Below are positions 2,632 to 32,535 of a stretch of 34,421 nt of DNA, piece after piece. Origin of the DNA: a virus. Numbering within the stretch: position 1 is the first letter of the stretch; the number at the start of each line of letters is the position of its first letter. The DNA lies in the IMG/VR virus record IMGVR_UViG_3300009285_006595, positions 1 to 34,421 of that record; one strand, written 5' to 3'. The notes under the pieces were generated by a model. The model was not told the DNA's origin. It did not search any database and saw nothing but the letters and a program-made list of their open reading frames with translations. The position numbers and the translations under genes are program-made.

Positions 2632-4727
2632 TGGTTTTACTATGGGACGTAGAAGAAGTAGCTGGCGGTAGCACTGCAACTACAGTGAACCCGCAGGTGG
2701 GTTCCGCTCATCCCACCGACCCTCAAATGGGCAGTTATCCTGTGGCCACGGTTGAATCATTACCCCCAGCGCCAGCTTCCACCGGACTGGAGCGAGTTCT
2801 ACCTCGCCAAGTCAGCACTGGCAGTCTACGCGGGCAACTTAGTATTGGTGGTTCGGCTATGCAGATTGATTCAACTGGGTCAACCATTCGCGCTGGACAG
2901 ACCGACTATGATGCCGGCACTGGTTTTTGGATGGGCATTGATAGCGGCACACCTAAGTTCTCAATAGGCAATTCTTCGGGTAATAAACTAACTTGGAATG
3001 GTACGACATTATCTATTACCGGTTCACTAACGGCTACTACGGGCGCAATAGGCGGTTGGACGATAGGCACTACAGCCCTAACTTCTGGTTCGGGGGCTAA
3101 TAGCGTTGGCTTGGATTCTGCTGGCACGAATCCGGCTCTTTATGCTGGTTCCGCCACACCAGCTTCGGCGCCCTTCAGAGTAACTCAGGCCGGTGCCCTA
3201 ACCGCCTCTAACGCTACAATTACTGGTTCTATTACTTCTACATCTGGGACAATCGGCGGTTGGACTATCGGTGCAACTACTATTACAGGAGGGAGTGCAA
3301 CACTAGATTCAACAGGAGTAGTTACTATCGGGACTACTAATGATGTCATTATCGCCTCTGCTGTTGATGCTACTTATCGTCTTTGGGTTGGCAATGCGGT
3401 GGCAGCCTCTGCCCCATTTTCTGTCACTAAGGCCGGAGCTGTTGCGGCATCAAATATTACGATAACAGGTGGGGCCGTCTCTGGCGTCCCTATAAGTGGA
3501 ATACCAAATTCAACTGTCACCGACATATCGCTCTTAGAGTGTTCTCATGATCTCGTGTTTTCGGTGACAGATGCAGATACAGTGGCATGGGCATTAGGTA
3601 CGATTATTTTCTCAAATGGGAGAACATTCTCAATTTCTGCGGGTAATACAGGGGATATGGTGGCACTTACTTATATTTATCTTGATCCAGCAGTTTCTTC
3701 TACCGTCCTTCAAGCGACTACAACTTATTCTACTGCGATGGGGGCAAATAAGAGATTAATTGGTACCGCACAAAATCATACGGTGACTGCTTCGTTTATC
3801 CCATACGGTGCCGGAGTTCCCCTTATAGATGGAGCAAATATTGGGGCGTTGTCTATTACTGCAGGAAATATAGCAGCAGCAGCAATCACTGCAGGCAAGA
3901 TAAGCGTTTCTACCCTTTCTTCTATAGTCGCAGATATAGGGACAATCACAGCCGGTAGTATTTCTGTCGTTAATGGACTTAATACAATCGGGTTTACGCC
4001 CAGTGGGGCAAATGCTATTTTTTCGGGGACAACAGGGTCTCCTGAATTTAAGGTCACTCCAGCAGGTGCTTTGACAGCAACTTCAGCCACCATCACGGGT
4101 AGTATCACTTCAACCTCTGGCACAATTGGTGGATTCACTATTGGCGCGGATTATTTGAGAGATACCGCTGATTCTATGGGACTAGCCTCCACCGCTACTG
4201 CTAGTGATGATGTCCGTTTTTGGGCTGGTGATAGTTTTACTAATCGAGCCTCAGCAGCCTTCAGAGTAACTGAGAGCGGGGCGGTGACGGTTACAAGCGG
4301 TTCAGTTCAAGGTTCATTAGTCACTTCAGGGTCCATCACCGGCGATAAGATTGCTGCCGAAACCATCACCGCTAGTAATATTGATGCACTTAATCTATCA
4401 GGTAAGACCTTAACAGCAGACACCGGTACTATCGGGGGTTGGACATTAAGCAGCAATCAGATAGTCGGGCCATCGGGAGCAGTTATCCGCTCCGGTCAGA
4501 CCGACTTTTCCGTTGGTACTGGATTTTGGCTGGGGAATGTCGAGGGCACACCTAAATTCTCTATCGGGTCAGCTTCAGGAAACAAGATGGAGTGGGATGG
4601 AACTTATCTTAGAGTGACTGGAGCCTTTACGCCCGCCTCAGTTTATAAAGCTTATACTTATGTAGTGGCAGACCTTCCGATTCCACCGACTACAGCCGGT
4701 TTTAACAGCCCAGCGGGGGTAGCCTAA
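2631..4727 (+). CDS. Repetitive tail fibre or tail-associated protein
   Basis: 698 residues, low complexity, dominated by Thr, Ser, Gly and Ala. A recurring module is visible: TSGTIGGWTIG or close variants at about residues 140, 205, 500 and 600, each preceded by ATITGSITS-like strands and followed by an APFRVTQAGAL-type strand. Such repeats form beta-helical or triple-stranded shafts in phage fibres. Two segments (near 90-130 and 620-660) are near copies (RAGQTDYDAGTGFWMG and RSGQTDFSVGTGFWLG), suggesting internal duplication. Both ends overlap neighbouring genes by one base, giving tight translational coupling. Probably a fibre or baseplate decoration; the receptor is unknown. Confidence 0.65.
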   Translation: MVLLWDVEEVAGGSTATTVNPQVGSAHPTDPQMGSYPVATVESLPPAPASTGLERVLPRQVSTGSLRGQLSIGGSAMQIDSTGSTIRAGQTDYDAGTGFWMGIDSGTPKFSIGNSSGNKLTWNGTTLSITGSLTATTGAIGGWTIGTTALTSGSGANSVGLDSAGTNPALYAGSATPASAPFRVTQAGALTASNATITGSITSTSGTIGGWTIGATTITGGSATLDSTGVVTIGTTNDVIIASAVDATYRLWVGNAVAASAPFSVTKAGAVAASNITITGGAVSGVPISGIPNSTVTDISLLECSHDLVFSVTDADTVAWALGTIIFSNGRTFSISAGNTGDMVALTYIYLDPAVSSTVLQATTTYSTAMGANKRLIGTAQNHTVTASFIPYGAGVPLIDGANIGALSITAGNIAAAAITAGKISVSTLSSIVADIGTITAGSISVVNGLNTIGFTPSGANAIFSGTTGSPEFKVTPAGALTATSATITGSITSTSGTIGGFTIGADYLRDTADSMGLASTATASDDVRFWAGDSFTNRASAAFRVTESGAVTVTSGSVQGSLVTSGSITGDKIAAETITASNIDALNLSGKTLTADTGTIGGWTLSSNQIVGPSGAVIRSGQTDFSVGTGFWLGNVEGTPKFSIGSASGNKMEWDGTYLRVTGAFTPASVYKAYTYVVADLPIPPTTAGFNSPAGVA

Positions 4728-8218: not shown

Positions 8219-11200
8219 ATGCCTCTACCATTCTTCAATCTACAAGCTACTAGACAATATGCTAGACCAGTTCAACCTCCGACAGTCCCGTCTGGTTTAT
8301 TTGGTATACCAGCTGCTGTTCAGGCAGCTCGCAATATTGAGCGTAACCAACTACAACGTGAGCTGGCTACACGATTAAGCCCTACAACTCAACGGTTTTT
8401 ACAGACTCCACCAAATGCTCGGCAGTTAATCGAGAAATATATAGGCTTTCGGCCTTCACCAATACCAACTGACCCGCAAGCCCAGATTGAGTATTACACT
8501 AAACAATTACGGGCAGGCAAGGTTAGTAAGGCTGAATATAATCAACGTGTCAAACAACTAGCACCGCAGATTCACGATGCCGGCACTAATTTGGCCACAG
8601 TTGGTGGTGGAGTATTACGAACGATAGCTAGAGGTTTACCGACGTTGGGAGCTTCAGCTCAGCAGCTGATTACTCGTAAGCCGGTAACTTTAAAACCTAA
8701 TCGAGCTGGACAGTTCATCTTCGGCAAACAGCCGATTGAATCTATCCAAGAAAGCGCCCGCAAAACTGAAGAATCTCATCCTGGTGGCTTTGGTGTAGGT
8801 CCTTTTAGTCTTTCGCCTAAGATGACTGGGGCGCTGTATAGCGCTGGAAGCTTGGGCTTAAACGCTGCTATGGCTGCGCCTATTTTAAAAGGTACAGTCG
8901 CTGGAGCAAAAACAATTGGCCCACCAATGGCTAAGACTGCTGGCAAAGTGGCAGCTGATGAAGCTGGATTTATCAGGATACCAGGCATACCAGACCGACT
9001 CGCTCCAAAGGGAATGCTAGCTCAAATGACTGGCGGTCAGATAAAAAAAGTGACGTCTGGCATTTCACCATTGACTGAGATTGGTATAGCACCTTTCCGC
9101 GATATTTCTTTATCTAAAATAGCTGATGTCAAACCTCATTTCTCAACTGCCCCAGCCAGAAAATTAGAGGCTGAGATTAATAAGGCAGCTATCAAGTTTG
9201 GTCTGAAAATTAACAAGTCTAGTCCTAGTGCTGGTATTTGGGAGAGTAAATTAGAACCCTCTTATTCCGTAACGGTTAGGGGCACCGCTTCAGCGGCTGA
9301 TAGTTATGGCGCTCATCTTGGAAAATATGCTAATCAGCAGGCAGTCATTATCTTTCGACCTGGTACTGGCGATAGTACTAAGTATATTTTGCAGGTCAAA
9401 GACATGGATAGTGCGATAGCTAAAATGCACCAACGAGGCATCCAAGGTGGCACTGTAGATGGCAATAAACTGGTTATTGTTGATTTTGATAATTCCTTAC
9501 AAAATCGTATAATTGAACTGTCAAAAGACTTAGGTGTTCGTCCTGATGCCACTAAGGGTCTTGGCAAATTGATAGGAGAAAAAGATTATGATAGCATTCT
9601 CGCCGGAGCCAGAGGAGCCAGAGGAAGATTTCGAGATAATCCTAGTCCCCAAGCCCAAACCCTAAGAGCCTTTCCTGAAACTGTCAGGACTTCGCCATTT
9701 ACACCTAATGATTATGCTCAGACTATAAAGGCTATGCCACTAAAGCACCGACCGCAGGGGCCGGTGATAGAAAGAGCTTTCAAGGATATCCAGAAGAATC
9801 CCTTAGCAGCCTTTGAGTCAGCCAAAAAGCCACTGCCAGCTGGAGCTAGTGATTATGAGGTTGCCAAACGACAACTTTTAATTGGCTATTTAGCTAAAAA
9901 TAAAATGCACGATCTAGCTGACGAAGTTTTACTACCTACGGCTGAAACTGCCACTGAAACAGCTAGGGCACTGGCTATGTTTGGAGCTTTTTCCCGCTCC
10001 ACACCAACTGGCATTTACTCTTATGTCAAACAATTTGGTGCGAGTGATGATGTAGCTAATAATTTCTTTGTTAGAGCCGGCAAAATCGCCAAAATTACTA
10101 ATCCCAAAAAACAAGCGCAAGAACGATTCGGATTATTACAGGATGCTGCCAGATATAATCCCAGCCCACGTTCTGCCCAGTTGATTGAAGCCTGGCGAGG
10201 TTTATTACTGCTCAATCCAATCACTCAGTTAGGTAATATTATTGGTACCGCTCAGGAAGCTATACAAATGCAGGGTATAGTCAATCCGTTGGCTACAGCT
10301 ATAGATGTAGGTATAGCTGGAGCCGGTAAGGGATTAAAGAAGCTTGGTCTATTCAGGGGTTCTAAGAAATTGGGTCAACGTTCGCGGACTTGGAGTCCAA
10401 CTGATGTGCCCAGATATTTAGAGGGGCAGGGTAAGGGCATTGGCGGTTTGGGAGAATATGCTAAAACTGGTTATGACCCTAGGAACCCTATGCTCAAGTA
10501 TGATGTCGACCCGACTAAAGGTCCTGTTAGATTCTCTAAATCTAAATTAGGCAATGTCGGTCGAGCTGTCTCCCAAGCGCCTTTTAGGATGTTAGGAGCG
10601 GCTGACCAACCGTTTTGGTACGGTGCCCAGAATGTAGCTCTAAAAGACTTAGCCCGCACGGCTGCCAAGAACAAAGGCTTAAAAGGTGACGCCAGGAAAC
10701 AGTTTATAGAAAAATTTATAACTAAAGGCAAACCTCAGACCAAAGCTGCCGAGGAAGCTAATTACGCTATTTTTGCTAACCCGACTAAGCTAGGACAGGC
10801 TGGCAGTGGTGTGGCCAACTTAGGTTGGTTCGGTAAATTTACTGTGCCTTTTGCTCGCACGCCTGGTTCAATCGGTACGAGATTATTTGTTGACCGCTCA
10901 CCCCTGGGAATCGCCAAAGCTATTGGACAACTATCTAAGATTAAGACTGGCCAGTTTGACCAGCGGCTGTTTACTCAGACTTTAGCTAATTCGATTACTG
11001 GCACAACTGAAGCCGCTTTGTTGGGCAAATATCTAACTGATAAAGGGTTAATTAATTTGAATTATCCGTCTAACCCAAGCGAACGAAAGCGCTGGGAATT
11101 AGAGGGTAGACAGTCTTATTCTATCCGGTTTGGCAAACGCTGGTTGAGCCTTAACTATATTCAGCCTTTTGGCTCAGTCATAGCTTATGGGGCAGCCTAT

Positions 11201-13032: not shown

Positions 13033-13245
13033 ATGGCAGTGAAGAATCCTTACAATTCAATTGGAAAACGATTACAACCAGCTGCGAAGGGCAGTGCGAA
13101 GGGTATGCAGCGTCAGGCCGTAGAGGATATGGATATAATGATGCAAAATGCTGACGACTATAAACCCAATAGTCCTGGCCTTAAACGATTCCTCAAAAAA
13201 AGATTACAAAAAAAGCGTAAACCGGTTCGGATTTTGAAGGCATAG
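13033..13245 (+). CDS. Small basic protein of unknown function
   Basis: 70 residues with a strongly basic end (KRFLKKRLQKKRKPVRIL) and an N-terminal KGSAKGMQRQ region; the middle is acidic (VEDMDIMMQNADDY). No recognised domain. It lies in the lysis region between the CHAP gene and another basic protein, one base apart from the latter. The start codon has no usable Shine-Dalgarno and sits six bases behind TATAAT. A nucleic-acid-binding or virion-decorating role is possible but unsupported. Confidence 0.6.
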   Translation: MAVKNPYNSIGKRLQPAAKGSAKGMQRQAVEDMDIMMQNADDYKPNSPGLKRFLKKRLQKKRKPVRILKA

Positions 13246-14482: not shown

Positions 14483-14713
14483 TCACTCATTCAACAGTTT
14501 AATTCGTTCATCGGATTCCATCTCTCGAAGTTCATCCATGGTCATAGGTTCAGCAAAACCAACTGACGGTGGTTTAGCTTCAGCCTGAGCCTTCTTCAGA
14601 GCCTCTAGGCGATGAATTATACCTTGCAGGCTATTTCTAACCTCTCGTAGGTAAAACCCCGCCCAGAAGGCCAGGGGAACGGCTACGGCTAGGGCTAATA
14701 TCAGCTCAGTCAT
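14483..14713 (-). CDS. Small single-pass membrane protein in the chaperonin operon
   Basis: 76 residues. One N-terminal membrane helix (LILALAVAVPLAFWAGFYL) followed by a charged cytoplasmic helix (REVRNSLQGIIHRLEALKKAQAEA) and an acidic tail (MTMDELREMESDERIKLL). It overlaps the groEL end by eight bases, so it is co-transcribed and coupled with groEL. The family is unrecognised. It might tether something to the membrane, but no link to chaperonin function can be shown from sequence. Confidence 0.6.
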   Translation of the reverse strand: MTELILALAVAVPLAFWAGFYLREVRNSLQGIIHRLEALKKAQAEAKPPSVGFAEPMTMDELREMESDERIKLLNE

Positions 14714-16292
14714 CTTCTTTATCTATAAAAATATTTAAACAATCAATCGTAACCACATTAGCGGCCATCGAGGCTGAGTTTTCTACAACTTGTTCGATGA
14801 CTAAATAAGGATCTAGGATACCTTCGGCTACTAAATCAACTAATTCGTCAGCCTTTTTAAGATTAAAACCATAGCCATAGGGCGCTTCCAGCACTTGACT
14901 AAGCTTAACGTCAGCCGGTAGGTTGGCATTATCCATTAACTTTTTAAAGACATTCTGCAAAGACAAAGCAAAAATTTGACCGATACTCTTAGTCTTAGAT
15001 AGCTCCAGTAAGACTACGCCCCCGCCAGGTACTACACCAGTAGCCGCAGCGGCACGAGCAGCTTGAATTGAATCCTCAATCCTAAACTCTTTTTCCTCAC
15101 GCTCAGTATCGGTTGCTCCACCAATTCTGAAAACTGCTATCCGGCCTTCCAGTTTGGCTAACCTATCCCTTAGTTTCTCTATAATGGCATCAACAGTTTC
15201 ATTATCTATCCGGTCTTTTATTTCAGCTTTGCGTCGCTCCAAATCTTCCTTAGAACCCTGGCCGCCAAAAACAGTCGTTTCATTAGCTGTACAGGTTACC
15301 TTCTCGGCTCGACCAAAATAAGAAGCATCAATATCAGCCAGGTTGCTGCCGGCGGCAATTAATTTACCACCGCTATAGATAGCCAAATCTTCCAAATATT
15401 TAACACCCATATCGCCCATTGGTGGTGTCTTGGTGACCGTGCCATCGAAGATACCCTTTTGGATGTTGGCTACGATAGTGTTGTAGGCATCAGCGTCAAA
15501 CTCACCGAAAAAAGCAATCCGCAGCGGTTCACGCAGCGGTGAGTTGAAGTCTAGGCCCTGTTCTTCATGGGCTAGTTCACCAAGCTTATTAAGTAAAATC
15601 AAAATATCTGAGCTAGAATTAATTAAGCGTGAACTAACTACTACATAAGGGCTTGACAGCTCTTTCTTACCCTGGCTGATAGCTGTGAAGCCCTGTTGCA
15701 AGAAGTAACCTTTAATATAAGTCCGATCAACGCCGTCAATCGGAGCTTTCTCGGTTATCAGACCACCGTCCGGTCCAACCGTTTCGATAGCCTCGGCGAT
15801 TAACTTACCCAGTAAAGGGTCGCCGCTAGAAACACCGGCTACCTGCTCTAATTGACCTTTTTTGACCGGTTTGGTCAGCGATTTAAGATTATCTAAAACT
15901 TTGTGGCTGTCATCTAAAATTTGCTGTTTAATATCCATCGGGTTGAAACCGGCGGCGATTTGCTGTAAGCCGAGTTGGATTAAATTGTGGGCTAGTATAA
16001 CAGTGGCAGTTGTGCCATCTCCCGCCACTTTGTTAGTAGCTTGAGAAGCCTCAATCAAAAAGGCGGCACCAATATTCTCAGCACGGTCCTCTATATAGCT
16101 TTCACGGGCGACAGTCACGCCATCACGAGTAATTACTGGACGGCCATAGGTCTTTTCTAGGGCTACATTACGGCCTTTAGGACCAAAAGTTATAGAAACA
16201 GCCTTATAAACTATCTCGGAACCTCTGAGCAAAGCCTGGCGAGCGTCAGCTCCAAAAATAAACAGCTTGCCATCTTTTTTTTCTTGAGCCAT
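14706..16292 (-). CDS. groEL: Phage-encoded GroEL (group I chaperonin)
   Basis: 528 residues, full length for group I chaperonins (E. coli 548). ATP-site residues are kept: FGPKGRN (36-42), RDGVTVA with Asp58 (E. coli Asp52), GDGTTAT with Asp92 (E. coli Asp87), RIED with Asp407 (E. coli Asp398), VVPGGG (420-425) and GILDP (491-495). It differs in the apical domain, where the E. coli GYLSPYF substrate-binding strand is GYFLQQGF, lacks about 11 residues after GGGVVLLEL, and has no GGM tail, ending DKEDD. It lies directly behind groES with no gap and a GAGG Shine-Dalgarno. An ATP-driven folding chamber, perhaps for capsid or other phage proteins, is the likely role. Confidence 0.95.
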   Translation of the reverse strand: MAQEKKDGKLFIFGADARQALLRGSEIVYKAVSITFGPKGRNVALEKTYGRPVITRDGVTVARESYIEDRAENIGAAFLIEASQATNKVAGDGTTATVILAHNLIQLGLQQIAAGFNPMDIKQQILDDSHKVLDNLKSLTKPVKKGQLEQVAGVSSGDPLLGKLIAEAIETVGPDGGLITEKAPIDGVDRTYIKGYFLQQGFTAISQGKKELSSPYVVVSSRLINSSSDILILLNKLGELAHEEQGLDFNSPLREPLRIAFFGEFDADAYNTIVANIQKGIFDGTVTKTPPMGDMGVKYLEDLAIYSGGKLIAAGSNLADIDASYFGRAEKVTCTANETTVFGGQGSKEDLERRKAEIKDRIDNETVDAIIEKLRDRLAKLEGRIAVFRIGGATDTEREEKEFRIEDSIQAARAAAATGVVPGGGVVLLELSKTKSIGQIFALSLQNVFKKLMDNANLPADVKLSQVLEAPYGYGFNLKKADELVDLVAEGILDPYLVIEQVVENSASMAANVVTIDCLNIFIDKEDD

Positions 16293-16634
16293 TTACGCCT
16301 CTACTCCCATTATTGATGATAATTTCACAAATACATATTGCTTGCCGTCATACTCAATATCAGTGCCTGACTCACTACGCTCTGGCCAGTAAACTCGCTC
16401 GCCTACTAAAGATTTATATTTATCATGGACCTGCCTGAGTAAATCTTCATCCATCAAGCTCTTGTCAAAAGCATAAGTGTTCATCCCGTAGTAAGTCATA
16501 AAATCCGATATAGCCACTACTTTACCGCTCCTGATGCCCTCACTAATTATCTTGCCGCCGGCAAATCCATAAGGGTTCTTTTCGATTTCAACCATAAAAA
16601 AGTCATTTAAAGGTTTGAGCTTTGATTCAGCCAT
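16293..16634 (-). CDS. groES: Phage-encoded GroES-like co-chaperonin
   Basis: 113 residues from ATG 16634. It opens with LKPLNDFFMVEIEKNPYG, like the first GroES strand, then a mobile-loop region with GGKII (a possible IVL-type GroEL anchor) and SGKVVAI (as in GEVLAVG), and ends GERVYWPERSESGTDIEYDGKQYVFVKLSSIMGV, the closing GroES strands. About 25-30 extra residues (DFMTYYGMNTYAFDKSLMDE and following) are inserted in the middle compared with E. coli GroES, as in other divergent phage co-chaperonins. The start is set by a promoter whose -10 lies downstream of an alternative TTG at 16667. It would cap the adjacent GroEL. Confidence 0.85.
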   Translation of the reverse strand: MAESKLKPLNDFFMVEIEKNPYGFAGGKIISEGIRSGKVVAISDFMTYYGMNTYAFDKSLMDEDLLRQVHDKYKSLVGERVYWPERSESGTDIEYDGKQYVFVKLSSIMGVEA

Positions 16635-16658
16635 AAATCGTTGTAATTCCTGGTTCTC

Positions 16659-16687
16659 ATTGTCCAAAACACTACCAAATATGTCAA
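16659..16687 (-). promoter_or_regulatory. Promoter of the groES-groEL operon
   Basis: On the minus strand TTGACA (plus 16687-16682), a 17-base spacer and GACAAT (16664-16659) form a good sigma-70-type promoter. Transcription would begin near 16652, leaving a short leader with AGGAA before the groES ATG at 16634. This placement decides the groES start. Confidence 0.6.
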
Positions 16688-17257: not shown

Positions 17258-17473
17258 ATGACTCTTATTATTTATTCTCGATCCAGTTGTGCCCCTTGCA
17301 AAACATTAAAATACTGGCTTAATAGGAAGCAAATCAAATTTAAAGAAGTAGATTTGGACAAACAACCTATTGATAATATTTATCTAGCACCAACAATTGA
17401 CATAGATGGCCAGCGCTACGCCGGCATTAACCTGCCGATGTTAATAAATATTATTACTACAGCTAGGGCTTGA
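17258..17473 (+). CDS. Glutaredoxin/NrdH-like thiol redox protein
   Basis: 71 residues with a minimal thioredoxin fold: first strand TLIIYSRSS, active site C11-A-P-C14, helix KTLKYWLNRKQI, second strand FKEVDLDKQ, cis-Pro loop LAPTIDI (Pro45) and the last strand/helix. Known relatives transfer electrons to ribonucleotide reductase or reduce disulphides, and phages often carry them. No reductase gene is in this window, so the partner would be host-encoded. Start supported by AAGG upstream. Slightly shorter than typical NrdH (75-80). Confidence 0.8.
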   Translation: MTLIIYSRSSCAPCKTLKYWLNRKQIKFKEVDLDKQPIDNIYLAPTIDIDGQRYAGINLPMLINIITTARA

Positions 17474-17499
17474 CTTGGTTCATTAGGCCTTGCTATGGT
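17470..17499 (+). promoter_or_regulatory. Promoter before the transglycosylase gene, with leader hairpin
   Basis: TTGACT (17470-17475), an 18-base spacer and TATGGT (17494-17499) form a plausible promoter starting about 17506. The leader holds AGGA near 17513 and a small GGGC/GCCC hairpin (17524-17535) between it and the TTG start, which could bring the two closer or control access. Confidence 0.4.
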
Positions 17500-17541
17500 G
17501 GTAGTGCTATGCAGGAACTTGCTGGGCTTTAGCCCGCCACT

Positions 17542-18261
17542 TTGAACCTCGATAAGTTTGAGTTATTTCTTGAAGAACCCCCTGGCGCCAAGAAAAGGGT
17601 AAGAGCTTCTGTCGCCAGAAAGCTCCAGGCTGACATCCGCAAGGAGTTTTGGTTCGGTCTTATAAAGTCGGGCTATAATCGAATCAGTCGACTACGTTCC
17701 AAGCTTAAAACCACCCTCTCAGCTCAGGCTCAGAGGGTTTTTAAGTGGTACAAAAAACCCCGAAAGCATTTAGAAGTTAGGATTAAATTCACTTGGACTA
17801 AGGTCTTAATCTTATTCATACTCGGTGCAGTTCTATGGCCAAACGAAGGCAAAGTAATAGCAGTTGATCCAGCCGTATCATTGCCGTCATTAAATTCTTA
17901 TCCTGCGCTCACAGCAGCCCTAGGGCTTGACGAAATACCCAAAGCTGAGTATTTGCCTATTATCGAGCCGGAAGCCCCCAGCCAAGCTCCTAGTGCGGTT
18001 ACAGGAAATATAGAGCAAATAATAACCAAGTGGGCTAACAATTATGATGTAAGTCCTGAGCGGTTATTAAGAGTCGCCAGGTGCGAATCGGGTCTTAATG
18101 CCCAAGCCCATAACCCATCCGGCGCAACAGGACTTTTCCAATTCATGCCCTCTACGTTTTATAGCAACGGAGGAATTGACATTTACAGCGCTGAAGATCA
18201 ATCAAGGGTAGCAGCCCTTATGTTTAGTCAGGGCCAGGCTGGACAGTGGGTTTGCCAATAG
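17542..18261 (+). CDS. Membrane-anchored lytic transglycosylase (SLT/Rpf-like)
   Basis: 239 residues. A basic N-terminal region (1-85), one membrane helix at about 87-100 (VLILFILGAVLWP), a Pro/Ala linker, then a lysozyme-fold domain: WANNYDVSPERLLRVARCESGLNAQAHNPSGATGLFQFMPSTF, with Glu182 as the expected catalytic acid. It would cleave glycan strands outside the membrane, either at entry (virion-carried) or at lysis. The only possible start is TTG 17542, since a stop lies just upstream and no ATG comes before the catalytic domain; it lacks a normal Shine-Dalgarno. The C-terminus ends soon after the core (GQAGQWVCQ). Confidence 0.8.
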   Translation: MNLDKFELFLEEPPGAKKRVRASVARKLQADIRKEFWFGLIKSGYNRISRLRSKLKTTLSAQAQRVFKWYKKPRKHLEVRIKFTWTKVLILFILGAVLWPNEGKVIAVDPAVSLPSLNSYPALTAALGLDEIPKAEYLPIIEPEAPSQAPSAVTGNIEQIITKWANNYDVSPERLLRVARCESGLNAQAHNPSGATGLFQFMPSTFYSNGGIDIYSAEDQSRVAALMFSQGQAGQWVCQ

Positions 18262-18545
18262 ACCCCCCTTTGCTTTTACAGCTATTCAGAGTTTGATGTG
18301 GTTTAAAACGATGACGGTGGCATTCTTAATGAGTATTACTAAGACCATAGCGTCTATTCTTATTTTAAGTCGCTAATTACGACTAGAGGTTGCCCCGACT
18401 TAGGGAATCTATGGCCTTAGTAATTAAACCAGGTTGCCGTAACAGGGGGTCATTCACAATAAGTCCGATCAGTTCCTACCATTCGTCAGAACACTTATTA
18501 GTGGACTAGCAGAGCCTGGATTTTTACTCACTAAGGGGAGTCGTG
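18261..18545 (+). ncRNA. Candidate structured RNA with nested helices
   Basis: No gene fits this gap. Reading the plus strand, successive segments pair in nested order: 18261-18267 with 18445-18451 (GACCCCC/GGGGGTC); 18300-18306 with 18424-18430 (GGTTTAA/TTAAACC); 18336-18350 with 18409-18423 (15 pairs, one A-C mismatch); 18366-18372 with 18396-18402 (TAAGTCG/CGACTTA). A second domain follows: 18458-18464 with 18493-18499 plus 18472-18475 with 18489-18492, and 18498-18503 with 18529-18534. The octamer AGGTTGCC occurs twice (18387, 18431). This nesting is unlikely by chance, but no family is recognised. It could be a long 3' UTR of the transglycosylase message or a separate RNA. Confidence 0.5.
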
Positions 18546-18564
18546 CAAAGTTTTAAAGTACGGC

Positions 18565-18592
18565 TTGACAAAAGATTTCAATTTGCTACTAT
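18565..18592 (+). promoter_or_regulatory. Strong promoter facing a terminator
   Basis: TTGACA (18565-18570), 16 bases, then TACTAT (18587-18592). The predicted start near 18599 leaves only about 40 bases before the terminator at 18612-18639, so the transcript would be a very short RNA. No gene follows on this strand. Confidence 0.5.
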
Positions 18593-18611
18593 AGGAGTAA
18601 CACGAAGTCAG

Positions 18612-18639
18612 GGCGCTGCATCTAGCGCCTTTTTCTTTT
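18612..18639 (+). terminator. Rho-independent terminator
   Basis: GGCGCT, a 6-base loop and AGCGCC form a perfect 6-pair GC-rich stem followed by TTTTTCTTTT. It ends plus-strand transcription before the convergent minus-strand module. Confidence 0.85.
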
Positions 18640-18646
18640 GTTAAAC

Positions 18647-18675
18647 ACTATTTGTCTTCCACGAAGTCAAATAGT
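18647..18675 (-). terminator. Hairpin, likely terminator of the minus-strand module
   Basis: ACTATTTG and CAAATAGT enclose CTTC/GAAG around a 3-base loop, with one mismatch between the two helices, giving 12 pairs. It lies 22 bases beyond the RusA stop and is followed on the minus strand by GTTTAAC, a weak T tract. The 10-base CACGAAGTCA in its loop side (18660-18669) also occurs at 18601-18610. Confidence 0.5.
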
Positions 18676-18696
18676 TATTCTTATTATAGCAGTTTT

Positions 18697-19050
18697 TTAT
18701 TGAAGTTCTTCAATTTCTATAGCACCCTCTTTAGCCCAGTATTTTTCGGCATAAATCTGCCAGACATAACTATCATTGTCTTTATCTAAAGCATCAAGCG
18801 TGGACTTAATTAAATTGTCAAGATCGGGTTTCTGACGATGGGATTTGGTATTCATGGCTAGCCTCTTTTTATTAGACCAACTAGGCGGCATCGGCATATA
18901 AAAAACCAGCCGTAAACTGGCTGGTAGCTCCTGCCGATATAAATAACGCAGCCGGTTGCAATAGGCAAAATAGCGCTGAGCCGGCTTAGTCCAAGTAGCT
19001 TTGTAGTTAATCCGCGGTGCTGGCTGGGGGGTTATTTTTATTAATGGCAT
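18697..19050 (-). CDS. rusA: RusA-like Holliday junction resolvase
   Basis: 117 residues, typical RusA length (about 120). Core: LRLVFYMPMPPSWSNKKR, then KPDLDNLIKSTLDAL with Asp76 and Asp78, then DKDNDSYVWQIYAEKYW, giving the third acidic position (around Asp91). These acids bind metal in RusA, which cuts four-way junctions as a dimer. Start at 19050 because GGAGG lies seven bases upstream; a longer open frame to 19113 lacks one and would add hydrophobic residues. It overlaps the preceding gene by 44 bases and is the last gene of the module. Likely role: resolving branched DNA before packaging. Confidence 0.88.
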   Translation of the reverse strand: MPLIKITPQPAPRINYKATWTKPAQRYFAYCNRLRYLYRQELPASLRLVFYMPMPPSWSNKKRLAMNTKSHRQKPDLDNLIKSTLDALDKDNDSYVWQIYAEKYWAKEGAIEIEELQ

Positions 19051-19216
19051 TTTGTCTAGCCTCCACACCTTTTTTAGACATTCGCTTAGCAAAATCAGGG
19101 TTATTAAAAGCACCGCCGCCGTGATGCTTAACTTGCTTGCGAATATCGCGCATATGCTGACGATAGGCCTCTAGCGAGCCATATTTCTTGATTAAGGTTG
19201 CTTTGGTTTGGTTCAT
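19007..19216 (-). CDS. Small basic phage protein (KYGSLEAYRQHMRDI type)
   Basis: 69 residues. Resembles short phage proteins with the pattern KYGS-EAYRQHMRDI...GGGAFNNPDFAKRMSKKGVEARQ, which are rich in Gly and basic residues and have no assigned function. It overlaps rusA by 44 bases in another frame. The start has no obvious Shine-Dalgarno; TGATACT lies 15 bases upstream on the same strand and could be an extended -10. A DNA- or RNA-binding role is only a guess from charge. Confidence 0.6.
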   Translation of the reverse strand: MNQTKATLIKKYGSLEAYRQHMRDIRKQVKHHGGGAFNNPDFAKRMSKKGVEARQNAINKNNPPASTAD

Positions 19217-19235
19217 AGTTGTTGACTTAATAGTA

Positions 19236-19523
19236 TCAGAACCATCGGTGCCTGGGTTTCTGTTCTACTTCTATTAGTCTGGACTGAACTGGATGGACTA
19301 TAAACACTGGTGCTTGCAGTGCTGACTGGCTAGGTCTACTCTTTAGGGTATACCGGTAGAGATTACCCCTGACTCGGTGGGCTTTGATAACCCAGCCACG
19401 ACGCCGCAGCTCAGCGATACGGGACGAATATTTAAAAATATTCATGTTTATCATATCGCGGCTGGTAATCCCTTGCGACCCTGAAGCCCTCAGAGCCGCA
19501 ATTATTTTTTCACACTGAGTCAT
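19236..19523 (-). CDS. Winged helix-turn-helix protein
   Basis: 95 residues. Residues 1-60 follow a winged-helix pattern: EKIIAALRASGSQGITSRDMINMNIFKYSSRIAELRRRGWVIKAHR then a beta wing (GNLYRYTLK). The rest is a Pro/Gln-rich tail. It resembles phage proteins that decide on DNA sites by an SSRIAELR recognition helix. The start overlaps the stop of the next upstream gene by four bases, so expression is coupled. It may be a transcription regulator or a replication accessory factor. Confidence 0.65.
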   Translation of the reverse strand: MTQCEKIIAALRASGSQGITSRDMINMNIFKYSSRIAELRRRGWVIKAHRVRGNLYRYTLKSRPSQSALQAPVFIVHPVQSRLIEVEQKPRHRWF

Positions 19524-20188
19524 TTTTGCCAGTAGGTGCCGTATGGCGTAGCTTTGTTCGGTTTATCCGTCTGCTGGATACCATTCAAGACAGCTATTAA
19601 TTGGTAAACAGCTTGCGTTAGTCGGTCAATCGACTGTTCCAACCCGACCACTTCCACCTTGGTTGCCGTGCTAATAGCGGGTGGAAGTTCGACAGAATGG
19701 GCAACAGGGATATCAGTGGAAGTAGAAACGTACGAACCCTGTTTAACTTTTCTTATAGCAGTCAAACTACGTCCACTAATCTTTTTTATTTGCTTGTAGG
19801 TAAAACCTAAACCAAATAGCTTTTTGATATGTTTAACCTCGTTTTGTGATAGATGGCTGCGAGTTACCGGTTGAAGTTGAGGGTACGCAGCAGCTTCAAT
19901 TGGGATTGGGGCTTCATTAGAGAAGGAGGCTAATTCCGCCACGTCACTTGGCGCCAGTCCGACCCATCTTTGTTGTTTGGCTTGTTCGTATTTTCTTAGG
20001 CGCTCAGTGCCTTGTCTCACTAAGCGTTGGTAGCTTTTAAAATCTTTAGCTTTTTTTACCTTGTCAATCGTGCTCCAACTACGACTAGTTACTTTAACTG
20101 TTTGGCTGGTGCTTAATCCAGCTGTCAGCAAATCTTTTAGATATTTAAACTCTTTTGGTCTCATTATTTTGAAATGTTTATTCTTCAC
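19520..20188 (-). CDS. Double helix-turn-helix DNA-binding protein
   Basis: 222 residues. Two related HTH units are visible: residues about 10-55 (EFKYLKDLLTAGLSTSQTVKVTSRSWSTIDKV) and 112-158 (EVKHIKKLFGLGFTYKQIKKISGRSLTAIRKV). Both follow the helix, GLSxxQ/GFTYKQ, sxxS-I-KVK scheme of homeodomain-like HTHs, so one arose by duplication. A linker with many Pro and Val follows, and the end is a short helix (EQSIDRLTQAVYQLIAVLNG) able to dimerise. GTG start after AAGGAG. The palindrome TTGACAAGTCAA lies just upstream (plus 20212-20223) and is a possible operator. Confidence 0.65.
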   Translation of the reverse strand: MKNKHFKIMRPKEFKYLKDLLTAGLSTSQTVKVTSRSWSTIDKVKKAKDFKSYQRLVRQGTERLRKYEQAKQQRWVGLAPSDVAELASFSNEAPIPIEAAAYPQLQPVTRSHLSQNEVKHIKKLFGLGFTYKQIKKISGRSLTAIRKVKQGSYVSTSTDIPVAHSVELPPAISTATKVEVVGLEQSIDRLTQAVYQLIAVLNGIQQTDKPNKATPYGTYWQK

Positions 20189-21709: not shown

Positions 21710-21830
21710 AAAATCCTCAAGGTCTGTTTATAACAAGACCCAAAACTCCTTTTTTAGGGTGGGTAGGGCCGGCAGTGGAGGGTGATCCAGCCGGCCCTAT
21801 CATTTTGTTGGATGATTATATCTCGTGATG
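21710..21830 (-). promoter_or_regulatory. Structured leader of the nuclease-SSB operon
   Basis: On the minus strand the leader can fold into successive hairpins: ATCATCC/GGATGAT at plus 21811-21843 around an inner CTC/GAG; TAGGGCCGGC/GCCGGCCCTA at about 21768-21803; and GGTCT/AGACC (21720-21740) ending seven bases before GAGG and the ATG. The GC-rich 10-pair stem could pause or regulate transcription or translation. No riboswitch class is recognised. Confidence 0.45.
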
Positions 21831-21890
21831 GAGTTATCATCCTAAAAGTGCTAACAGCATTACCTAGACCGGAGACTAGATAAAGTGTTC

Positions 21891-21926
21891 AACGTCAATG
21901 GTATTACGTTAATGATTGGTTGTCAA
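21891..21926 (-). promoter_or_regulatory. Promoter with overlapping operator
   Basis: Minus-strand TTGACA (plus 21926-21921), a 17-base spacer and TACCAT (21903-21898). An inverted repeat AACGT-N10-ACGTT (21891-21910) overlaps the -10, so a repressor there would block RNA polymerase. Confidence 0.6.
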
Positions 21927-21934
21927 GTACTTTT

Positions 21935-21979
21935 TTGCTGAAAATTTCTACGTTTACTTGCTGAAAATTTCTACGTTTA
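21935..21979. repeat. Two identical 22-base direct repeats
   Basis: Perfect copies at 21935-21956 and 21958-21979, with a 23-base period (about two helical turns) and the core GAAAATTTCTACG. They sit just upstream of the -35 box of the minus-strand promoter, where an activator or a co-operative repressor would bind. An iteron role is also possible. Confidence 0.7.
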
Positions 21980-22002
21980 TAGCTGACCAATTTGATATTT
22001 TT

Positions 22003-22089
22003 TTAATACGGTGGTTTCTTGACAACAGCGTGATATAGTATTATAACTGTACAGATTACAGCTATAATAATTAAACTGATTCGGTGCAT
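22003..22089 (-). CDS. 28-residue single-pass membrane peptide
   Basis: MHRISLIIIAVICTVIILYH followed by a basic, Pro-containing end. The ATG is preceded by AAAGGA at a seven-base spacing, which supports translation. It lies between the 124-residue gene and the nuclease control region. Function unknown; size and hydrophobicity fit toxin-like, lysis-modulating or superinfection-exclusion peptides. Confidence 0.5.
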   Translation of the reverse strand: MHRISLIIIAVICTVIILYHAVVKKPPY

Positions 22090-22117
22090 TTGGTAGTCCT
22101 TTACTACCCTACCCTGT

Positions 22118-30042: not shown

Positions 30043-32535
30043 ATGACTGAAAATGCTCAATTAGAGGCCAGTAATGTTTTGGCCTGGATCACTTTAAACA
30101 GCTTTGTTAATGAGTATAACAAGCCGATTGAGTTCGTTAATCACCGGTTTATGATTGATTATATGGTTGATGACCATCCGACTATTGTGACCAAGAAGGC
30201 GGCTCAGGTGGGCATGACAGTGGCTGAGACCCTGAGGGCCATCCACGAGGCCAGTTTCGGCCATAAGAACGTGATCCACACGCTCCAGACCTCGGATGTC
30301 ATTAAAGGCTTTGTAGCGCCTAAGGTTAATCCGATAATCGAATATAATCCTAAAATTAGAGCTTTGATGAAGGTAGACAGTGAGAGCCTGAAGCAGTTTG
30401 GCGAAAATTTTATTTACTACCGTGGCGCTCAGGCCGAGAGTCAAGCTATTAACATTACGGCCGATGTGTTAAATATTGATGAATATGACCGCTCCAACCA
30501 AAAAGTCGTTGAAGTCTATCGGTCGCGGCTGGACGCCTCGCCAGACCCCAAAATTCGTTATTTTTCTAATCCAAGCGCTATCGGTTTTGGCGTTGATGGC
30601 TTGTATCAGCAGTCTGACCAGCGGCATTGGTTTATTACTTGCCATCGCTGTGGTCATGCTAATTTTATGGATTGGCAGCCTAGCGACGAGTTAAACCACT
30701 ATGTCGATGTCGATAAAGCTATATATGCCTGTGGCAAATGCGGTAAGGAGATTACTGACAAAGACAGGATTAACGGCGAATGGGTGACTAAATATCCAGA
30801 TCGTAAGATTCATGGCTACTGGGTCAGTCAGCTGATGGCACCCTGGGTCAGCGCTCAGCATATTATAGAAAAGCAGATAACTTCCAGCACCGAGTATTTT
30901 CATAATTTTGTGCTGGGCAAGGCTTATACTCCGACTGATTTGATAGTCAATCGGGATACCATCTTACGGGCTTGTAGTCCTAGCTTGATCCCCAAGGTCC
31001 AGGTGGCGATTGGTGTTGATAATGGTGTAGTTAAACACTGGGTGGCTGGTACGCCCCAGGGCGTCTTTGACTATGGCAAGACTGAAAGCTGGGAGGAGAT
31101 CGAGCGATTACTGCTGATGTATAACGCCGTTATGGTGATTGACGCTAACCCTTATCCGAATATCCCTAAACAGCTGGTGGAGAAATATAAAGGTCGGGTT
31201 TTTATTAACTATTACAAACGGGACAGCAAGAACTTAGGGATTGTGCTGTGGCGTGAGGGTAAGGAGTATGGTGTGGTGACAGCTGATCGAACCAAGGTCT
31301 TCGACTTGGTGGCTAATGAGATTGCCGAGAGTCGTCTGTTATTTCGTCAGACGCCGCACCAATTAGAGGGATATATCAGCCATTGGGCTAATATCTATCG
31401 GACGGTTGATACTGATGCTAGGGGCTTAGAGCGGGGCGTCTGGGTGACGCAGGAAGGTCGGCCAGATCATTATTGTTTTGATGGGAGTACATTTATTAAG
31501 ACTTTGCGTGGTGATATTAAGATTAAAAATGTAAGAAAAAGCGATCATGTTCTGACCAGTAAAGGTTATTGTCGGGTTACTAGGGCTTGGTTGACTAAGA
31601 AAAACGCTAAAGTTAAAAAATATAAATTTAGTAATGGCGCGGAAATTATAGCTACGCCTAACCATAGAATAGCTACTGAGAAAGGATTTATCCCATTGCA
31701 CGATATAGTTTATTCCGATAAGATCAAAGTATGGTCAAGACCAAAACAATTATTTTCCAAGGCGTTACATATCGTCGATACCCAAATTCAAAAACTAGAA
31801 GCGAGAGAGTCTATTATATGCCAAACGGAACAGAACGGGCCAAGGGCCGCAAGCGTTATCACCAGGAACTCTGGATTCACTATAACGGTCTTGTCCCAAA
31901 AGGCTTTGTCGTTCACCACGCTGATGACAACTCCCTCAACAACTCATTGGACAATCTCGAACTTATCGAACGAGGAGAACATCAATCAAACCATAGTCTG
32001 CAACATTTCCAAGACCCTAAGTACGTTAAACGCAACAAACGACTATTGGATATTATCCGACCTAAGTCTCATGCTTGGCGTAGGACTGAGCAGGGTAAAA
32101 AATGGCATAGCGAACATGCTAAAAAAACTTGGTATCGTCGGGAGCCACTTTTGCTTAAATGTATTGGGTGTGGTACGGAATTTTTTAGTTACTGGAAACA
32201 CCATACTAAGTGGTGTTCAAGAGCGTGTATCAATCGAATTTATCAGCGAAAACTTAGGGCAAAGAAACGTCTACAATCTAACAGTTGAAGGCAACCACGA
32301 GTACTATGCTAACGGAATCTTAGTCAGTAATTGTCATGCCCAGATTTACCAGCGTATTGCCTTGTCTCGGCAGCTAGGCGCCTCCATGGGTATTGGCTTT
32401 GTAGAGCCGTTGACAAAAGAGAAGCCTAAGGCTGATTATATTAATAGTGAGGGCAAGTTGGTTACCGACTTGTCTGAACAGATAGAAGAAGCCCTGTCGG
32501 GTGATAATATAAGCACTGATTGGCGTTATCAATGA
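30043..32535 (+). CDS. terL: Large terminase (GpA type) interrupted by an intein
   Basis: 830 residues as read, 544 after removing the 286-residue intein. ATPase: Walker A-like KKAAQVGMT (51-59) and Walker B VLNIDEYD (142-149). A four-Cys zinc site (200, 203, 230, 233) typical of lambda GpA-like terminases. Nuclease: Asp326 (GVDNG), Asp367 (VIDAN) and Asp475 in RPDHY. The intein starts at Cys478 and ends before Cys764, so splicing joins DHY to CHAQIYQR and restores the conserved third nuclease motif. Without splicing the nuclease is broken. Start at 30043 has GAG six bases upstream; its end overlaps the next gene (ATGA). It drives DNA packaging with the small subunit. Confidence 0.92.
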   Translation: MTENAQLEASNVLAWITLNSFVNEYNKPIEFVNHRFMIDYMVDDHPTIVTKKAAQVGMTVAETLRAIHEASFGHKNVIHTLQTSDVIKGFVAPKVNPIIEYNPKIRALMKVDSESLKQFGENFIYYRGAQAESQAINITADVLNIDEYDRSNQKVVEVYRSRLDASPDPKIRYFSNPSAIGFGVDGLYQQSDQRHWFITCHRCGHANFMDWQPSDELNHYVDVDKAIYACGKCGKEITDKDRINGEWVTKYPDRKIHGYWVSQLMAPWVSAQHIIEKQITSSTEYFHNFVLGKAYTPTDLIVNRDTILRACSPSLIPKVQVAIGVDNGVVKHWVAGTPQGVFDYGKTESWEEIERLLLMYNAVMVIDANPYPNIPKQLVEKYKGRVFINYYKRDSKNLGIVLWREGKEYGVVTADRTKVFDLVANEIAESRLLFRQTPHQLEGYISHWANIYRTVDTDARGLERGVWVTQEGRPDHYCFDGSTFIKTLRGDIKIKNVRKSDHVLTSKGYCRVTRAWLTKKNAKVKKYKFSNGAEIIATPNHRIATEKGFIPLHDIVYSDKIKVWSRPKQLFSKALHIVDTQIQKLEARESIICQTEQNGPRAASVITRNSGFTITVLSQKALSFTTLMTTPSTTHWTISNLSNEENINQTIVCNISKTLSTLNATNDYWILSDLSLMLGVGLSRVKNGIANMLKKLGIVGSHFCLNVLGVVRNFLVTGNTILSGVQERVSIEFISENLGQRNVYNLTVEGNHEYYANGILVSNCHAQIYQRIALSRQLGASMGIGFVEPLTKEKPKADYINSEGKLVTDLSEQIEEALSGDNISTDWRYQ
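31474..32331 (+). mobile_element. Intein inside terL (Hint halves plus spacer)
   Basis: Encodes 286 residues (478-763 of the product). N-terminal Hint block starts CFDGSTFIKTLRGDIKIKNV with the Cys1 nucleophile; block B TPNHRIA has the usual Thr and His; the C-terminal block is NVYNLTVEGNHEYYANGILV then SN before Cys+1. The penultimate residue is Ser rather than His, seen in some active inteins. About 180 residues between the halves show no endonuclease motif in this frame, but an HNH gene lies there in another frame. Insertion at the catalytic DHY motif is a typical intein site. Confidence 0.9.
31731..32288 (+). CDS. HNH homing endonuclease nested out of frame in the intein
   Basis: 185 residues in a different frame from terL. 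HNH core: LWIHYNGLVPKGFVVHHADD, with His62-His63, then NNSLDNLELIERGEHQSNH with Asn71 and His84. C-terminal zinc ribbon: CIGC (144, 147) and CSRAC (162, 166) followed by a basic tail. The ATG is at the end of the Hint N-half and the stop lies inside the Hint C-block, so it fills exactly the place where an in-frame endonuclease domain sits in large inteins. No strong Shine-Dalgarno is seen; reinitiation or frameshifting may be needed. A homing role for the intein is the natural inference. Confidence 0.85.
   Translation: MVKTKTIIFQGVTYRRYPNSKTRSERVYYMPNGTERAKGRKRYHQELWIHYNGLVPKGFVVHHADDNSLNNSLDNLELIERGEHQSNHSLQHFQDPKYVKRNKRLLDIIRPKSHAWRRTEQGKKWHSEHAKKTWYRREPLLLKCIGCGTEFFSYWKHHTKWCSRACINRIYQRKLRAKKRLQSNS

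Follow-up and report, generated by a model that had tools for sequence, protein, structure and literature searches.

A possible promoter–terminator cassette beside a non-coding spacer at the early/late junction of a phage contig

Does the non-coding DNA at the meeting point of two opposing phage gene blocks encode a large structured RNA? The question arose in the IMG/VR record IMGVR_UViG_3300009285_006595, of which we analyzed positions 1 to 34,421 (hereafter, the window), all of it a viral contig. An SLT-type transglycosylase gene closes the late-strand (+) block ahead of the junction, and a RusA-like endonuclease gene is the final gene of the early (−) operon, whose strand carries AAA ATPase, VWA, exonuclease, SSB-like and RusA genes; the labels "early" and "late" rest on gene content. 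Given that the transglycosylase gene ends at 18261 and the early block at 18697, the 435-bp gap between them is a tail-to-tail junction. The original prediction placed an RNA of nested helices in 285 bases of this gap, on the late strand.

The statement that neither a coding frame nor a known RNA class fits these 285 bases held throughout. They contain no gene-sized reading frame, and a coding remnant was rejected on the absence of significant PHROG matches to their stop-to-stop pieces. Across the whole window no Rfam family reached its gathering score, the matches to RNAI and ctRNA falling far below theirs, and neither with introns allowed nor without them did ARAGORN, at its default threshold, find a tRNA or tmRNA. 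The stretch had also been compared with GOLLD and ROOL as a possible further type of large phage RNA. These are non-coding, structured phage RNAs, and many GOLLD RNAs exceed 800 nt (PMC12286853). The candidate resembles them in being non-coding, structured and phage-borne but would measure about 285–415 nt at most, and the window has no tRNA island. Neither family was matched in 17400–19600 at E values up to 10 in Rfam searches, and we excluded both on model match, size and the absent tRNAs.

All four inverted repeats of the proposed RNA are present on the + strand, in the correct nested order and in non-coding DNA (Table 1), but the fold built from them lies within the range of chance. The 285-mer reached −73.5 kcal/mol on the + strand compared to −68.7 kcal/mol for shuffled sequences (z −1.07), and 34 of 200 shuffles were as good, so that the comparison set in advance as the test went against the nested RNA. 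For the inner 192 nt the z-score was −1.87, with 21 of 500 shuffles as good. Base-pair probabilities were at most 0.01 for the two outer 7-bp helices and about 0.73 for the innermost, whereas the 16-bp stem was predicted apart from its A–C mismatch and fraying ends, making the 16-nt repeat the only robust helix of the four. No second repeat of this kind occurs in the window, and 7 of 100 shuffled windows contain one. The "second hairpin domain" said to follow (18454–18545) was less stable than its shuffles (z +1.44). The repeated octamer, AGGTTGCC, does occur twice in the stretch, at 18387 and 18431, but its window count of 3 was reached by 15 of 100 shuffled windows. As the fold did not depart from its shuffles and neither outer helix is predicted to form, we rejected a new family of structured + strand RNA. 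Such signal as exists points to the opposite strand and to the adjoining 18548–18677. The more modest suggestion that the stretch belongs to the 3′ end of the transglycosylase message fits: because the first convincing intrinsic terminator after the gene is at 18610–18631, the stretch would be, on the + strand, part of the SLT 3′ untranslated region (UTR).

Relatives of the junction were sought with GroEL, SLT, RusA, the AAA ATPase (alone and aligned) and a small ORF at 19007–19216 as anchors, and the adjoining element described below was additionally sought with exact patterns, a nucleotide search of phages and plasmids, and a covariance model. No homologue of the 285 bases was found in the collections searched, and their similarity to the spacers of L006, L019 and other phages was not significant. 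The sole homologous sequence found for the junction lies outside the reported stretch, in a 130-base element that starts just beyond it. Over all of these searches only the phage of L006 (IMGVR_UViG_3300025324_000016) carries this element, and exact-pattern matches outside that phage were at chance level. Over the best 100 bp the two copies are 95% identical, compared to 68.5% in DNA for the best shared gene segment and about 26–62% for shared proteins (AAA 49%, VWA 34%, small ORF 59%). The element is in the same position in both phages, just past the final early gene, which is RusA for the window and a NinG-like gene for L006. It folds more stably than shuffles on both strands (z −4.5 on +, −3.95 on −), and between its two available sequences there are zero compensatory double changes.

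On the side of the element that corresponds to the window spacer, L006 has non-coding DNA of about 700 bp that is unrelated and folds strongly. This region (L006 10690–11440) is structured on the + strand (z −4.3) and has tRNA-Leu-like ends about 225 nt apart (GGCGGAACAGGTAGACGC ... GCGAGGTGCAAATCCTCGC); a tRNA-Leu-like reading of 10707–10932 is plausible by eye, and we rejected it since ARAGORN support did not exceed that of shuffles. Elsewhere in L006, 827 nt after the VWA gene (3296–4122) contain no frame of at least 70 amino acids and several long hairpins (z −7.0). Among the regions we examined, the most convincing candidate for a structured RNA is a non-coding stretch of about 200 nt in the early operon of L019 (9585–9785), with a 13-bp closing stem and a z-score of −6.5.

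The window, L002, L003 and L006 phages are mosaic. The window encodes its own GroEL (14706–16667; Pfam Cpn60) with a GroES-like reading frame adjoining on the − strand, and the latter resembles a frame beside the GroEL of L002. L002 and L003 carry relatives that adjoin their terminase, and L006 shares only early genes with the window. In the window, the gene for the large terminase subunit (30043–32535) has an intein splicing domain inside it, and an early promoter region at 21710–22117 (TTGACA at 21926 on the − strand; − strand z −4.1) contains two perfect tandem 22-nt repeats, TTGCTGAAAATTTCTACGTTTA, that are operator-like.

We tentatively propose, at somewhat less than an even chance, that the 130-base element is an insulator cassette encoding a short, OOP-like RNA and that the reported 285 bases are a variable spacer within the SLT 3′ UTR. 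The element has an extended −10 promoter conserved in L006, which is the only TTGACA/extended −10 site of such quality in the 34-kb contig, followed by an intrinsic terminator that is intact in both phages, and this unit is directed at the early operon's end. A short antisense RNA of this kind would have its own conserved promoter and an intrinsic terminator, as found here. Firing toward the early operon, the strong promoter would yield a transcript that meets the terminator after about 38 bases, and the same terminator would also stop the SLT message of the late strand. In this way the cassette would serve as an insulator and a source of antisense-type RNA, keeping early and late transcription apart: the opposing promoter and the RNA, with its 5′ tail CACGAAGUC, may block early transcripts extending beyond RusA or pair with them. 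The only other places complementary to the predicted RNA are the second copy of a 9-base repeat within the element and a 12-nt chance match. The sequences themselves show the features, their conservation and a comparable arrangement in a third phage; transcription, the roadblock and RNA pairing are what we infer. The 285 bases would then simply separate the late gene end from the cassette, with no independent nested RNA.

Table 1 Features of the early/late junction in the window (inverted repeats are given as left arm/right arm).
Feature	Position	Strand	Remarks
SLT-type transglycosylase gene	17542–18261	+	Pfam SLT E 1.7e-10, Transglycosylas E 4.5e-8
Reported stretch, non-coding variable spacer	18261–18545		Fold z −1.07 (+), −2.60 (−); no homologue; no Rfam match
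Outermost exact inverted repeat, 7	18261–18267/18445–18451	+	
Second exact inverted repeat, 7	18300–18306/18424–18430	+	
16-nt inverted repeat arms	18335–18350/18409–18424		15/16 as DNA; 16/16 on − strand RNA with one G–U
Innermost exact inverted repeat, 7	18366–18372/18396–18402	+	
Conserved non-coding element	18548–18677		90% identical over 135 bp to L006 10555–10689
Promoter TTGACA-16-TACTAT, extended −10 (TGCTACTAT)	18565–18592	+	Conserved in L006
Predicted short RNA, about 38 nt	18599–18637	+	Start predicted from the locations of promoter and terminator
Direct repeat copy 1, CACGAAGTC	18601–18609	+	In predicted 5′ tail of short RNA
Intrinsic terminator AGGGCGCTGCATCTAGCGCCTT + TTTCTTTT	18610–18631	+	GC-rich hairpin with T tract; intact in window and L006
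Hairpin ACTATTTG...CAAATAGT	18647–18675	−	First hairpin of candidate − strand RNA
Candidate early-strand extended −10 (TGCTATAAT)	18683–18691	−	Predicted start about 18676, edge of conserved element
RusA-like endonuclease gene	18697–19113	−	Pfam RusA E 3.1e-17

A similar arrangement is present in a third phage, G007 (L019/L037); its AAA protein and that of the window share about 48% identity. Near 12.8–13.15 kb, at its own convergent early/late junction, a promoter of unrelated sequence (TTGACA-18-TGTTATCAT at 13142 on the − strand) is followed by a terminator, the pair facing the early operon as a second, independent cassette. The late reading frame of G007 ends about 10 bp or less from this promoter, leaving virtually no spacer where the window has about 285 bp; what is common to the phages is the layout of the cassette, not the spacer. 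The cassette is the simplest account of the junction, combining an element far more alike than any shared gene, the same location in two phages, a unique promoter, an intact terminator, an unrelated counterpart in G007, and a variable spacer with a non-significant + strand fold. Against it, the predicted RNA is very short, L021, with convergent genes about 13 nt apart, lacks a cassette of this kind, and the significant − strand fold of the whole junction (z −3.8) is superfluous to the cassette reading.

Antisense RNAs of the OOP and sar type end at an intrinsic terminator, and OOP is 77 nt long. In phages lambda and P22, the short antisense RNAs OOP and sar are each transcribed from a promoter of their own and act on messages of the opposite strand (PMC12197685). 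The predicted RNA of the window is likewise phage-encoded and short, with its own promoter and terminator, and is directed against phage genes of the opposite strand. It differs in its position at an early/late convergent junction and in its predicted length of about 38 nt compared to 77 nt for OOP. At most, the cassette may work like OOP and sar, and we claim no membership by sequence.

The − strand fold raises the question of whether a longer RNA is transcribed from the early strand. On this strand the 285-mer had a z-score of −2.60 with 1 of 200 shuffles as good, and the hairpin region 18330–18430 reached −4.25 compared to −2.56 on the + strand, one reason being that the lone mismatch of the 16-nt repeat becomes G–U instead of A–C. 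The − strand stretch nevertheless ranks just 19th among 342 tiled windows of the contig, and coding windows reach similar z-scores; stability alone therefore proves little. A single − strand non-coding RNA of about 415 nt, starting at 18676 and reaching 18262, with the 130-base element as conserved 5′ domain and the reported stretch as variable 3′ domain, seems unlikely to us. The complete span 18262–18676 is unusually stable on this strand (z −3.78; 0 of 100 shuffles as good), as is the matching strand of L006 (−4.27 compared to −1.53 on the other), and the 16-bp stem is perfect solely here. In both phages a candidate − strand promoter would put the start at the element's edge, L006 having TTGACA-18-TAAACT at 10520–10549, which corresponds in place to TGCTATAAT at 18691–18683, and one stem pair changes from U–G to U–A with pairing retained. 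Apart from the similar z-scores of coding windows, several points weigh against this long RNA: the 3′ parts of the two phages are not significantly similar (16 of 200 shuffles did as well), the element's two sequences have no compensatory double change, and a loop-closing pair (C–G in the window, C–A in L006) is broken on the − strand but kept as U–G on the + strand. The short + strand RNA would, on this reading, be an antisense regulator of the 5′ part. In ColE1 RNAI/RNAII and plasmid CopA/CopT, a short, strong antisense RNA faces the 5′ region of a longer, structured RNA. The antisense layout would be the same only if the early-strand RNA is real, both window transcripts being predicted; unlike those systems, the junction has no link to replication, and the Rfam RNAI and ctRNA scores are far below gathering. 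We regard as rather improbable the extension of this idea to a bipartite early/late locus, in which a structured early-strand RNA would join a near-invariant 130-nt 5′ domain to an exchangeable 3′ domain (285 nt in the window, about 700 nt in L006) and be checked by a tiny, strongly transcribed antisense RNA, placing both strands of the 130 bp under selection.

An ordinary convergent spacer with a terminator, its fold due to chance and its element spread recently by recombination, would account for the non-significant + strand fold, the modest − strand rank and the lack of a relative in the other collections searched, and recent transfer would explain the 95% identity equally well. From two copies of the element, a recent horizontal transfer of about 130 bp cannot be told apart from strong selection. 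This plain reading leaves aside both the cassette of unrelated sequence but matching layout at the equivalent junction of G007 and a promoter that is the contig's sole TTGACA/extended −10 site, and we consider it unlikely. The element might instead act as DNA. Two copies of its 9-mer CACGAAGTC lie 59 bp apart in the window; each phage has two and neither genome has any other, with copy 2 (18660–18668 on +) inside the hairpin at 18647–18675. In the window an A comes directly after each copy, and in L006 an extra C stands before this A at both; such matched change (GTCA/GTCA, GTCCA/GTCCA) is expected if one factor recognizes both, and the repeats would then be putative operators at which a phage regulator controls the strong promoter. 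Gene conversion could likewise make the copies change together, copy 2 is also part of a hairpin, and the comparison rests on two genomes; we hold this operator reading to be very improbable.

If the cassette reading is correct, these phages would shield the place where opposing operons converge by means of a dedicated promoter–terminator cassette, of which the layout recurs and not the sequence. The locus also carries a caution, in that nested inverted repeats that the eye picks out in a phage spacer can be no more stable as a fold than shuffled sequence, with the selected sequence next door.
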